The notes beneath the pieces are model-generated. The model did no database searches and was not told the origin of the DNA. It worked only from the letters and a program-made list of their open reading frames with translations. From Millisia brevis NBRC 105863 (GTDB lineage: Bacteria > Actinomycetota > Actinomycetes > Mycobacteriales > Mycobacteriaceae), in NCBI RefSeq assembly GCF_001552615.1, contig NZ_BCRN01000001.1, positions 186,001 to 250,000 on the forward strand: DNA of 64,000 nt, in the 5' to 3' direction. The position numbers were made by a program, and so were the translations under genes. Shown here one piece after another: positions 40,108-43,691 of this stretch (the first letter of the stretch is position 1; each line of letters starts with the position of its first letter).

Positions 40108-40518
40108 TCAGCGCATGCGTTCGAGCGCGTAGACCAGCACCGGCACCAGGACCACGTGCATCAGCGACAGCAGCACGGTGCTGACGGTGTCGAAGCCGGC
40201 GGTCACGGTCATCGCGATGGTGCCCAGGGCGGCGATCGAGCCGATGATCTGCGCCGGACGAATGACCGCCGGCACCTTCGGCGCCATCAGCCCGGCCACC
40301 AGCAGTCCGACCGTCAGCGGGAGGATCGTCATCACCAGCACGCCGCCGGGAGCGACGGTCTCGGTGCCGCCGGCGCCATCGGAGACCTCGAACGATCCGC
40401 CGAGGGCCAGGCCGATCAGCCACAACACCAGGTTCGCCACCACCGCGGCGACGACGGCCGCCCCCGTGGTGACGAGGATGCGCCGCAAACCGAGCGTCGA
40501 CGTACCCGTTTCGGTCAT
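40108..40518 (-). CDS. DUF6069-like four-helix membrane protein
   Basis: 136 residues with four membrane segments (about 12-33, 57-77, 86-107, 115-133), a layout and composition like the DUF6069 family of small actinobacterial membrane proteins. Function unknown. The ATG at 40518 has AAGGGG about 7 bases upstream; an ATG two codons earlier lacks spacing. It is 55 bases downstream of the MNIO operon's last gene on the same strand, so read-through is possible, but an inverted repeat TCACCAG/CTGGTGA (40535-40571) lies between. Confidence 0.65.
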   Translation of the reverse strand: MTETGTSTLGLRRILVTTGAAVVAAVVANLVLWLIGLALGGSFEVSDGAGGTETVAPGGVLVMTILPLTVGLLVAGLMAPKVPAVIRPAQIIGSIAALGTIAMTVTAGFDTVSTVLLSLMHVVLVPVLVYALERMR

Positions 40519-40573
40519 GTGCATTCCCCTTCGGTCACCAGCTGCGTCCCGATTGCCGGGTTTTCTGGTGAGA

Positions 40574-41011
40574 CTAGCCGAGTAGCCGCTTCCACCACGG
40601 ACGTCCGGTTGTCACTTCGGGACCCCCTCCACCGTGCGGCGCCGCCTCGGTGGGGTCGATCTCGCCCCGCTCGACGAGATGGGCGGTGAACGCCCGGGCC
40701 TCGGCGGCCGAGCCGGACCGCTCCCGCCCGCGCGCCCAGTCCGCGAACAGCTCGACGAAGCGATCGCCCAGCATGCTGCGGATGTGCGGGATATGCCAGG
40801 CGACCTCACCGGCGCGTTTGCGCAGCAGCGCGTCGGCCGCGACGCCAACCCGTCGAGTGTCGAATCCCTCGGGGATCGGGCCGCCGACTACCAACGCGCG
40901 AACCAGCTCGGCCTGTTGACGAGCCAGCTGCTCGCGTTCCCACACAGTGGCTCCTGCCTCGGACCCGGCCTCGTCCCCTGCCTCGACCTCGGACACGGGC
41001 TCGTCAGGCAT
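40574..41011 (-). CDS. Putative partner protein of the DUF692 (MNIO) enzyme
   Basis: 145 residues. After an acidic N-terminus comes a helical domain: VWEREQLARQQAELVRALVV, then FDTRRVGVAADALLRKRAGE and GDRFVELFADWARGR. DUF692 enzymes are nearly always encoded with a small helical partner that binds the substrate leader (MbnC, TglI, BufC/DUF2063 types), and the N-terminal helices here resemble that role. The ATG at 41011 overlaps the DUF692 stop by 8 bases. It ends PWWKRLLG, a possible membrane or enzyme contact. Identification as the partner rests on operon position. Confidence 0.65.
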   Translation of the reverse strand: MPDEPVSEVEAGDEAGSEAGATVWEREQLARQQAELVRALVVGGPIPEGFDTRRVGVAADALLRKRAGEVAWHIPHIRSMLGDRFVELFADWARGRERSGSAAEARAFTAHLVERGEIDPTEAAPHGGGGPEVTTGRPWWKRLLG

Positions 41012-41834
41012 CGGCCCACCAGCGGCTGCCGACGGTGATGCGGTCGGCCGACGCCGCAATTGCGATCGCGTCGAGTTCGGTGAGCAACTCGCGGGCGGGT
41101 GGGTAGTCGCCGTCACGTTCGAGCATGAACGCCGGCGCTCCCGCCGCCGCGGCGCGGGACACCAGGTCGAGCACCTCGTCGGGGACCGCTGCGCAATGCG
41201 TGTCGTGGTACAGCTCGCCCGCGTCGTGCCCGCCCGCCACGTGGCAGTAGGCGACCCGCTCGATCGGGAGTCGGGCGAGGTCACGGGCCGGATCGGTACC
41301 GCGATTGCGGGCGCAGGCGTAGACGTTGGCGACGTCGAGCAGCAGCAGCGCGTCGGTGCGCTCGACGATCTCCGCGATGAACTCCCCCTCGCTGAACTCG
41401 TCGTCCGGCCAGTCGAAGAGGGTGGCGATGTTCTCGACCGCGAAGGGCACCGGCAGCCGGTCCATCGTGCGGCGGATGTTGTCGACCAGGACGTTGAGCG
41501 ACGCGCGGGTGCGCGGCACCGGCAGCAGGTGGCCGGCTTCCAGACCGTCGGCGCGCACGAAGGCGAGGTGCTCGCTGACCAGTGGCGAGTCGAGCGCCGT
41601 CGCCGCTCGGGCGAGCACGTCGATCCGTTCGGCCGTCACCGGTTCCGCGCCCCCGAGCGACAGCCGGATGCCGTGCGGGATCACCGGAACGGCCAGCTCC
41701 CGCAGGATCTCGACCGTCGCGTCGCCGACCGATTCGGCGATGACCTCGGTGAAGCCGAGACCCGGCAGCTCGGAGACCAACCCGGAGATCTCCGGGCGCC
41801 AGCCGATTCCGATTCCCGCGATCGGAGAACTCAT
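41004..41834 (-). CDS. DUF692 / MNIO-family multinuclear non-haem iron enzyme
   Basis: 276 residues of TIM-barrel fold. All expected metal-binding motifs are present: His54 (IPHGIRLS), SEHL with His89, EN at 134-135 (FAVENIATLF), LLLDVANVYA with Asp167 and Asn170, CHVAGG with His198, HDTH at 210-213 and LERD with Glu239. Characterised members (MbnB, TglH, ChrH, BufB) use two or three irons to oxidise cysteines in ribosomal peptides. The ATG at 41834 has GGGGGAG 6 bases upstream. It sits 25 bases after a membrane protein with a Gly/Cys tail, its likely substrate. Confidence 0.88.
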   Translation of the reverse strand: MSSPIAGIGIGWRPEISGLVSELPGLGFTEVIAESVGDATVEILRELAVPVIPHGIRLSLGGAEPVTAERIDVLARAATALDSPLVSEHLAFVRADGLEAGHLLPVPRTRASLNVLVDNIRRTMDRLPVPFAVENIATLFDWPDDEFSEGEFIAEIVERTDALLLLDVANVYACARNRGTDPARDLARLPIERVAYCHVAGGHDAGELYHDTHCAAVPDEVLDLVSRAAAAGAPAFMLERDGDYPPARELLTELDAIAIAASADRITVGSRWWADA

Positions 41835-41859
41835 TGCCCACTCCCCCTGGTCGATGGTC

Positions 41860-42828
41860 TCAGTCACCGCCGCCACATCCTCCCCCGCCGCAGCCCGGAC
41901 CGGCATGGCCTCCCCCACCGCCGTGGCCACCAACGCCCGCGTCCGCCCATACCCCGTAGGCACCCGAGCAACTCGCGCTGCCCCCATAACTGAAGCCGAG
42001 CAGGCTCACTCCGAACAGGGCTCCCGCCCGCCGCCGCTCGGCCACACCCCCTGCGGCCGCCGATTCGGTGCGAACAACCCGGCCGATCGAGTCGACGGCG
42101 TCCGGGCCGAACAGCGCCACGGCCATCGCCGATTCGCGCGGGCCGTACAACCGCGTCGACGGGCGCCGGTCCGGCGTCAGATGCCGGTAGGTGTGCGCCA
42201 GTTCGGCGATCACGCGGTCCCCCCGGCTGGTGCGACGCAGGCTTCGCCTGCGTCCGAACCATTCCCGCACCAGGTCGACGGTGAGCACCACCGCGCGGAT
42301 GAGCAGAACGGCGGCCGCAACACCGAAGACCCAGCGCAGCACGGTCGGCACCGGTGAACCGAAGACCACCAACCCCACCGGACCGAGCAGGATGCCGGGC
42401 ATCGCCATCAACGCATCGGCAACCACCCGCCACCGTCCCGGTGGACACCCCAAGTACCCGCGATCGGTCACCTCGGCGCTCAGGTTCCGCCAGTCGTGGC
42501 CCGGGTTCCGGATCAGTCGATCGTAGGTAATGGTCGTGGACCGGGGCACCTTTCGCAGCACTGCGGCGGTGAAAGGGTGCAATGTCGCCGTCGGCTCCGT
42601 CCCGCGGCGCCGCAGATGCCTGCCCCGTTCGACGGTGATCCGCTCGAGTAGGAGCAGTTCGGTGATCGCGACGGCAACCGCGTGCGGATACGAGAACAGG
42701 GCGCCTACCTCGACCGGTTCCAGCTCCGGCTCGTCGCCCCGACGTGCTCCGGGGCGGGGGCGATCCCGGAGGGCGAGGACGGCGCCGACGAGGTATCCGA
42801 TGGCCACCAGCCACCACAGGTGATTCAC
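41860..42828 (-). CDS. TIGR04222-type membrane protein with Gly/Cys-rich C-terminal tail
   Basis: 322 residues. An N-terminal membrane segment (LWWLVAIGYLVGAVLAL, about 4-20), a cytoplasmic TIGR04222-like domain (about 45-140, VAVAITELLLLERITVERGR), then two membrane helices (about 152-190) and a second domain. The last 40 residues are Gly/His rich and end GHAGPGCGGGGCGGGD, with Cys313 and Cys318 plus Cys287. Such tails recur in TIGR04222 proteins beside DUF692 genes, so this tail is the probable site of oxidative Cys modification. GTG 42828 overlaps the upstream stop as GTGA. Confidence 0.8.
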   Translation of the reverse strand: MNHLWWLVAIGYLVGAVLALRDRPRPGARRGDEPELEPVEVGALFSYPHAVAVAITELLLLERITVERGRHLRRRGTEPTATLHPFTAAVLRKVPRSTTITYDRLIRNPGHDWRNLSAEVTDRGYLGCPPGRWRVVADALMAMPGILLGPVGLVVFGSPVPTVLRWVFGVAAAVLLIRAVVLTVDLVREWFGRRRSLRRTSRGDRVIAELAHTYRHLTPDRRPSTRLYGPRESAMAVALFGPDAVDSIGRVVRTESAAAGGVAERRRAGALFGVSLLGFSYGGSASCSGAYGVWADAGVGGHGGGGGHAGPGCGGGGCGGGD

Positions 42829-43691
42829 GACACCCTTCCCTTCCGCAGGTCGGTCGCCCACATTTCGACAGCAGCCCCCCAGGACGCGAATGTCCTTGGT
42901 GCCGTTCGTATCCTGATGTCGCGGAACGCTTCGTGGAGCGCCGGTTCGGAGTCGCGTACGGCCTCGGGCCCGTAGATCGCCGCGCCCATGGCGGTTTCGC
43001 GCGGCTCGTGGACGGTTGGCGCCGGTCGATGATGCGGGCCCAGGTGGCGGTAGCGCTCGCGCGCCCGGCGCAGTTCACCCACGCCGCGCGGGGTCGGTCC
43101 GCTGCGGACCCGGTCGTACGGGTTGCTGTGCAGCACAGGAACGATCAGGGCGGCCCCGGTCACCGCGCAGATCAGTACCGGCGCGAAGGCCGCCGCCGAC
43201 AGCACACCGGTGGCGATGCCGATCGCCCCCAGAGCCCCGACGACCAGCGGAGCGACCGTCACCCAGCCGGAGGCCGGGCGCCGCAGATATCCCCGTTCGA
43301 TCAGATCGTCGCGCAGCGCGCCCCGCGGACCGACGGTCGCCGTCTCCGCCTCGGCCGGCGGCCGTCCCCCGCCAGCGGCGACGGCGCGCCCGACATCGTT
43401 CACGAACGGATGCGTCCATTGCTGCGCGCGACTCCCGGTCGCGTGGACTCGGCCGGCGCGGACGACGATCGCGTCGTGCGCGGCCAATTCCGTCAGCGCG
43501 ACCAGGACGGCGAGCCGATCCGATGTCAGCATTCCGAACTCGACCGGTGCGAGAGCGGGGCGCCGCCCCCACGGCACCGCCGATCCGTACAGGACGGCCC
43601 ATGCGATTCCCGTGCCGACCAGGGTGAGCACGACCACCGCGAGATATCCGACGGCCGGCCCCCATTCGGGCACGTTCGATAATCCCCCCAT
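42825..43691 (-). CDS. TIGR04222-type membrane protein without Cys tail
   Basis: 288 residues, paralogous to the next gene: an N-terminal membrane segment (about 14-37), a TIGR04222-like domain (DRLAVLVALTELAAHDAIVV, then DLIERGYLRRPASGWVT), two central membrane helices (about 148-187) and HEPRETAMGAAIYGPEAV, matching GPRESAMAVALFGPDAV in the paralogue. It has no cysteine-rich end, so it may be a structural partner rather than a modified substrate. ATG 43691 has GGGGAGGGG upstream. It heads the four-gene operon, and a LacI-like operator lies just before it. Confidence 0.8.
   Translation of the reverse strand: MGGLSNVPEWGPAVGYLAVVVLTLVGTGIAWAVLYGSAVPWGRRPALAPVEFGMLTSDRLAVLVALTELAAHDAIVVRAGRVHATGSRAQQWTHPFVNDVGRAVAAGGGRPPAEAETATVGPRGALRDDLIERGYLRRPASGWVTVAPLVVGALGAIGIATGVLSAAAFAPVLICAVTGAALIVPVLHSNPYDRVRSGPTPRGVGELRRARERYRHLGPHHRPAPTVHEPRETAMGAAIYGPEAVRDSEPALHEAFRDIRIRTAPRTFASWGAAVEMWATDLRKGRVS

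Follow-up and report, generated by a model that had tools for sequence, protein, structure and literature searches.

An MNIO gene cluster of Millisia brevis predicted to modify the cysteine tail of a TIGR04222 membrane protein

We analyzed a 64,000-nucleotide stretch of Millisia brevis NBRC 105863 (assembly GCF_001552615.1, contig NZ_BCRN01000001.1, positions 186,001 to 250,000, forward strand), here called the window, which contains a minus-strand operon for two TIGR04222-like membrane proteins (P0001 and P0002), an MNIO/DUF692 enzyme (P0003) and a small helical protein (P0004). Sequence comparison points to a membrane-protein modification system in which P0003, an iron oxidase, together with P0004 would oxidatively modify at least one Cys in the disordered C-terminal tail of P0002, the tail facing the cytoplasm. 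We put the probability of this reading at about two in three. The idea that MNIOs modify TIGR04222 Cys tails was already published in 2025, and the locus fits the proposed class. Antoine et al. 2025 (PMC12452194) reported that TIGR04222 genes adjoin MNIO genes, mostly in Actinomycetota, and proposed the TIGR04222 subsets with C-terminal Cys-rich segments as MNIO substrates. The initial annotation of the window had also named the tail of an integral membrane protein as the substrate; comparison supports this part well, and the novelty belongs to Antoine et al. Besides that paper, the literature on TIGR04222 that we found was a passing mention in a genome paper (PMC5183585).

The co-occurrence of tail and enzyme was analyzed in 150 genomes of the order, with at most 17 TIGR04222 candidates scored per genome; proteins with at least two Cys within the last 40 residues were counted as Cys-tailed. 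TIGR04222 exceeded the cut-off in 59 genomes, and MNIO was present in 55. In total, 103 TIGR04222 tails were read (G104 was cut by a contig end; the G127 tail lay behind a frame break, and the other frame was without a Cys tail). All 71 Cys-tailed proteins came from MNIO genomes, 64 of them adjoining the MNIO gene and 7 located elsewhere. The 32 other TIGR04222 proteins adjoined MNIO in 9 cases, were located elsewhere in MNIO genomes in 16 and belonged to MNIO-less genomes in 7. Counted by genome, both features were present in 50, a Cys tail alone in 0, MNIO alone in 5 and neither in 95 (Fisher p = 1.7e-34, relatedness ignored). The five genomes with MNIO alone were explained by contig-end cuts (G080 and G104), an exchange of the membrane anchor described below (G069) and divergent MNIOs (G008 and G082). 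Of the genomes listed for genus g2, G084 is the one that has MNIO and also the one that has TIGR04222; 15 lack both.

Seen from the enzyme, a TIGR04222 neighbor was present at 50 of the 59 MNIO places of the order sample, and the nearest copy was Cys-tailed in 50/50. Of the nine remaining places, three were cut by contig ends, one was the anchor exchange and five had divergent MNIOs (PF05114 scores of 61 to 160 bits). At 15 of the 50 places there was more than one TIGR04222 gene, and 9 of these 15 have exactly one tail-less copy, like the window. The link between DUF692 and Cys-tailed TIGR04222 on which the initial annotation depended was therefore borne out, with 71/71 proteins and 50/50 nearest neighbors. 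According to PMC12452194, more than one-quarter of TIGR04222 proteins are without C-proximal Cys, and 490 of 1372 TIGR04222 genomes are without MNIO. Much of this "looser association" is accounted for by whether the TIGR04222 protein has a Cys tail, because in the order sample the Cys-tailed copies are all in MNIO genomes and the MNIO-less genomes have only copies without such a tail.

P0002 matched TIGR04222 with 70.3 bits in an NCBIfam hmmscan (cut-off 43). It consists of an N-terminal transmembrane helix (TM1), a DUF2207_C-like soluble domain, a TM2-TM3 hairpin and a disordered Gly/Cys tail; the model has a mean predicted local distance difference test score (pLDDT) of 75, with the tail mostly below 50. 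The tail Cys are C313 and C318, and the last 60 residues contain 3 Cys. Among 80 named loci, a TIGR04222 gene was located upstream of the MNIO gene in 71, and the nearest copy had two or more tail Cys in 70 and a single one in L225. The nine other loci were six contig edges and three loci of the Rhodococcus erythropolis group. A loss of TIGR04222 in this group was considered and rejected, since Cys-tailed copies were found approximately 7 kb away, past the first flank. Cys was concentrated in the tail, with a mean of 4.39 in the last 60 residues versus 0.59 elsewhere (71 proteins). Furthermore, CGG forms the exact end of 62 of the 71 upstream proteins, and 6 have their last Cys at position -5, as in P0002. 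Because a tail composition of 70% Gly and 18% Cys would give CGG in approximately 9%, the CGG end itself seems to be under selection, although the relatives counted are not independent.

P0003 matched PF05114 (DUF692) far above the cut-off of 25 (253 bits). Its best NCBIfam match was BufB (NF050167), at 176 bits, under the curated cut-off of 310, and the closest named relative found was from Gordonia polyisoprenivorans (74% identity; very near genomes may be missing). In agreement with the initial annotation, which stated that all metal motifs are kept, SEHL, EN, LLLDVANVY, CHVAGG, HDTH and LERD were present. In the printed alignment, the nine iron ligands of TglH, which form the di/tri-iron site (positions from PMC10880893), correspond to H54, H89, E134, D167, N170, H198, D211, H213 and E239 of P0003, and they were invariant across the 12 sequences of set A1. 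At N135 (window position ~41430), which follows the iron-bridging Glu, 5 of these 12 sequences (L070, L074, L082, L091 and L173) have Pro in place of Asn.

P0004 alone had no family match in NCBIfam or Pfam. However, its position is conserved. For the neighbor analysis, 57 of the 59 MNIO places of the order sample were used and two divergent ones were left out; a match to the P0004 profile was found 3' of MNIO in 54 of these 57 loci, the three misses being divergent MNIOs. Of the 54 matches, 53 were within 1.2 kb (L069 and L072 partial) and one, L111, was at 3.7 kb. In the phylum sample, the unchanged profile matched at 11 of 15 MNIO loci, and the four misses were other MNIO types without TIGR04222. 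A P0004 relative followed MNIO in 80/80 named loci. Moreover, a single open frame spans enzyme and partner in 10 of the 11 phylum-sample loci (L165-L172, L174 and L175, all of genus g49, with a linker of 29 to 84 residues) and in L072. These frames are natural fusions and provide the best evidence that enzyme and partner work together.

The AlphaFold2 model of P0004 (pLDDT 86) was weakly similar to MbnC and TglI, which are both MNIO partners. Foldseek against the PDB gave MbnC as the best match (E = 0.14) and ranked TglI 11th of 14 (E = 8.8), and a VIA comparison placed MbnC first (Z = 5.0, root mean square deviation 4.1, 105 residues) and TglI next (Z = 3.5). With hhalign, the P0004 family was compared with six DUF2063 partners from bufferin-type loci (P = 0.0023, probability 12.5%, 104 columns), and a control with an unrelated family gave P = 0.56. 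DUF2063 was matched by one of three family members tried at E = 1.8e-4 and by another at 0.15, and by 1 of the 59 members of set A2 (P0004 and 58 of 64 candidates) at E = 0.033. The partner profile had no match among solved-structure sequences up to E = 10. Taken with its neighborhood, P0004 is a probable MNIO partner protein. In PMC12452194, PME-type 2 partners are reported in at least 10% of TIGR04222-MNIO clusters, and many clusters apparently lack partner genes.

The operon layout was re-read from the sequence (Table 1), and the arrangement described in the initial annotation was reproduced: a GTGA overlap of the P0001 and P0002 genes at 42825-42828, the 25-base gap with its ribosome site and an 8-base overlap of the P0003 and P0004 genes at 41004-41011. 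Since equivalent gene sets are common across Actinomycetota, the grouping of the four genes is not due to chance. The gap is too short to hold a separate precursor peptide gene. Among 71 relatives, the tail gene and the enzyme domain were a median of 22 bases apart (maximum 196, with more than 100 in 5). A hidden precursor peptide between the two genes was therefore rejected for most loci, where the genes almost touch. No conserved fifth operon gene was seen among the 25 commonest families of frames of at least 90 residues in the 80 loci; the recurrent neighbors were mostly lineage specific.

Four MNIO-partner loci have no adjoining TIGR04222 gene. Instead, they encode a protein in which a single hydrophobic segment is followed by an Arg-rich stretch and a Cys/Ser/Gly tail (Table 1). 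No TIGR04222 was found by the search of the G069 and G531 genomes, and a standard cluster is additionally present in G485 (L328) and in Tsukamurella tyrosinosolvens (L282). Since these four loci swap the anchor and keep tail, enzyme and partner, they suggest that the tail, rather than the TIGR04222 domain, is the conserved unit that stays with the enzyme. The MNIOs of G531 and G485 share 62% identity with the G069 enzyme; because the MNIOs are related, the four exchanges may go back to one event. In the genus of G069, MNIO was present in 5 of 17 genomes, and the exchange was seen in one. We found no description of the small-anchor proteins or of a tail-less first gene in Antoine et al. 2025 (PMC12452194).

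On which side of the membrane the tail resides was addressed by homology and charge. The TIGR04222 and DUF2207 profiles align over 206 columns including the transmembrane pair (hhalign probability 96%, E = 2.2e-9 for this single comparison; control, P = 0.35). The DUF2207 C-terminal domain (PF20990) was matched by 35 of the 71 members of set A3 (P0002 and 70 of 71 candidates) at E up to 0.1, the best at 1e-7. P0002 alone had no Pfam match and is thus below the PF20990 cut-off. By these profile comparisons, the C-terminal half of DUF2207 and TIGR04222 are homologs, though P0002 is not filed as a PF20990 member. DUF2207 proteins (YciQ-like) differ by an additional N-terminal domain, and some have Gly-rich tails, such as L155, whose tail is without Cys. 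They are predicted to have an extracellular N terminus and a Gly/Ser-rich C terminus inside the cell (PMC10457818; the printed "intercellular" taken as intracellular).

Charge was scored on 59 of 73 proteins, the other 14 being without three clean hydrophobic segments; starts were chosen by rule. Lys/Arg per residue was 0.022 before and 0.167 after TM1, 0.219 before TM2, 0.109 in the loop and 0.273 after TM3. The hairpin flanks had more Lys/Arg than the loop in 59/59 proteins by count, which set 20-residue flanks against shorter loops, and in 55/59 in the weaker version per residue, including all 35 with loops of at least 8 residues. After TM1, Lys/Arg exceeded that before TM1 in 56 proteins by count, with 3 ties, and per residue in 41 of the 42 with residues before TM1. 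Because of the DUF2207 homology and the charge bias, the tail is most likely cytoplasmic (N-out, C-in), contrary to the published periplasmic view. P0002 would stay in the inner membrane with its N terminus outside and its domain and tail in the cytoplasm, so that the enzyme would meet the tail within one compartment, without any need to export a modified peptide.

The periplasmic placement leads to the alternative that survives best, namely that the tail is modified and then exposed in the periplasm like bufferins, binding copper or another metal. It is the published reading from predicted topology, and related MNIO enzymes act on exported bufferins (PMC12452194). However, the N-out/C-in charge bias of most of the 59 scorable proteins argues against it, as do the homology to DUF2207 in its C-terminal half, the N-terminal half of DUF2207 being predicted to be extracellular, and the small replacement anchors, which are also Arg-rich between helix and tail. 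We regard periplasmic exposure as unlikely. A release of the modified tail as a soluble product, i.e., a ribosomally synthesized and posttranslationally modified peptide (RiPP) with a membrane protein as leader, is distinctly improbable. MNIOs are RiPP enzymes, the conserved CGG end could define the product, and a Pseudonocardia TIGR04222 gene is listed within a predicted bacteriocin cluster (PMC5183585). However, no widely conserved protease or exporter was seen in the 80 loci among the 25 commonest neighbor families of frames of at least 90 residues, the most frequent of which reach 18 loci, mostly of related lineages. That the tail is instead an unmodified Cys-rich metal or redox segment, with MNIO acting on a substrate encoded elsewhere, would fit the g49 loci described next but has little probability, given that 71/71 Cys-tailed proteins occur with MNIO, that the tail moved onto another anchor yet stayed with enzyme and partner, and that MNIO is truncated in one locus (L330) whose genome has apparently lost TIGR04222.

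Several points weigh against the modification of a cytoplasmic P0002 tail by P0003 and P0004. Among the ten MNIO-partner loci of genus g49, a Cys-tailed TIGR04222 was present in 2, a Cys-less one in 6 and none in 2 (exceptions L166, L167, L169-L172, L174 and L175). No TIGR04222 was found anywhere in the genomes of the latter two, and no Cys-tailed open frame that looked real was found near the exception loci. The g49 genomes are large and may be Streptomyces-like; in four of them, a further TIGR04222 whose tail has one Cys is encoded elsewhere (L177-L180). All seven TIGR04222 genomes of the order sample that are without MNIO belong to one family, so that this contrast is not phylogenetically independent, and the family search scored no more than 17 candidates per genome. 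The P0002 tail is poorer in Cys than most and ends in CGGGD, not CGG. The partner matches were weak throughout (Foldseek E = 0.14, hhalign probability 12.5%, DUF2063 in 1/59), and 3dee, named as a solved DUF2063-type partner in PMC12452194, was in neither fold-match list shown for P0004. Per residue, the charge bias was reversed in 2 of the 59 proteins and tied in 2. Finally, predicted topology led Antoine et al. 2025 (PMC12452194) to a periplasmic tail.

The proposed system was compared with known MNIO clusters. The TIGR04222-MNIO clusters of Antoine et al. share the enzyme family, the membrane protein family and the Ser/Gly/Cys C-terminal tail; here, in contrast, a partner gene is present at nearly all loci of the type and the tail is predicted to be cytoplasmic. 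In bufferin clusters (BufB and a DUF2063 partner), MNIO is likewise followed by a helical partner gene and the targets are Cys. With respect to the pairs TglH/TglI and MbnB/MbnC, the nine TglH ligands are conserved in P0003, and the P0004 model is nearest to MbnC and TglI, weakly. Unlike TglI and MbnC, P0004 is, judged by its length, too short for a full second domain. The substrates of TglH/TglI and MbnB/MbnC are peptides, and methanobactins, like bufferins, hint at metal binding. In the TglH/TglI system the peptide is TglA (PMC10880893), and bufferin precursors have a signal peptide (PMC12452194), whereas the putative substrate here is an integral membrane protein. By analogy, bufferins suggest metal binding (PMC12452194). 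The product of the M. brevis system may be a thiooxazole or a similar Cys-derived group, with a possible role in metal binding or redox sensing at the membrane. The earlier ideas of copper defense, and of P0001 as a scaffold, are speculation.

P0001 is a tail-less paralogue of P0002 and would, most simply, be its partner subunit. The paralogy proposed in the initial annotation agreed with our alignment (31% identity over 224 columns, E = 1e-15). The hydrophobic segments of P0001 are compatible with three transmembrane helices, and it has no Cys tail. P0001 reached 55.1 bits to TIGR04222, over the cut-off, in a six-frame genome search, yet it had no NCBIfam match in hmmscan; this may be a filter loss, which could hide tail-less members in surveys. 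In the same six-frame profile search, MNIO was matched once and TIGR04222 three times in the 5.65-Mb M. brevis genome. The third TIGR04222 gene (L066 6791-7786), outside the window and approximately 60 kb off, has no adjoining MNIO; its tail ends GGCGGGGGCGG, and the four-Cys tail of L066 is recorded as ending CGGGGGCGG. This protein could serve as a substrate in trans.

Fold searches with the P0002 model gave no convincing match, and the TIGR04222 profile had chance-like matches only among solved-structure sequences. The soluble domain (P0002 ~34-130) was faintly similar to GPP34/GOLPH3 (hhalign P = 0.0022, probability 12.8%), which was matched in Pfam by 2 of 71 TIGR04222 members (best E = 0.012) and was not among the matches listed in the P0002 fold searches; this is a weak lead. 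At L330 5303-6100, a frame starts like a TIGR04222 N terminus (MSNPWGLSGPAFLWLYAGG) and continues into an MNIO that lacks its beginning. A TIGR04222 gene was not found in this genome, and the locus is either decayed or an assembly fault. L170 and L174, the g49 loci with open frames listed, also encode an exported protein that we take to be DUF4142-like. In the window, the operon is followed by a gene for a DUF6069 membrane protein (48 bits) at 40108-40524, and nothing ties DUF6069 to the operon.

Table 1. Features of the operon in the window and of the small-anchor loci
Feature	Position	Strand	Basis or source
P0001, tail-less TIGR04222-like membrane protein, 288 amino acids, first operon gene	42825..43691	-	Genome profile search, paralogy to P0002
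P0002, TIGR04222 membrane protein, 322 amino acids, GTG start	41860..42828	-	70.3 bits to TIGR04222
Gly/Cys-rich tail of P0002, ~last 43 residues, ending GPGCGGGGCGGGD, proposed substrate	41863..41991	-	Sequence
Gap of 25 bases with ribosome site GGGGGAG, between tail gene and enzyme gene	41835..41859	-	Sequence
P0003, MNIO/DUF692 enzyme, 276 amino acids	41004..41834	-	PF05114, 253 bits
P0004, helical protein, 145 amino acids, probable MNIO partner (possibly a DUF2063-like helical domain)	40574..41011	-	Model, neighborhood
Small-anchor protein	L097 5387-5827		Genome G069
Small-anchor protein	L283 4392-4679		Tsukamurella tyrosinosolvens, annotated hypothetical protein
Small-anchor proteins, two in tandem	L326 6658-7312		Genome G531
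Small-anchor protein	L327 6201-6500		Genome G485

More tentatively, and at a little under even odds, permanently membrane-tethered, cytoplasm-facing modified-Cys tails may form a class in which the tail rather than its carrier protein is selected, moves between unrelated anchors together with enzyme and partner, and works in place at the inner membrane face as a metal or redox center instead of being released. MNIOs are familiar as enzymes that make small natural products. Should they also install modified Cys in resident membrane proteins, the reaction would count as a general protein modification across many Actinomycetota, and the TIGR04222 family, so far without a function, would gain one.

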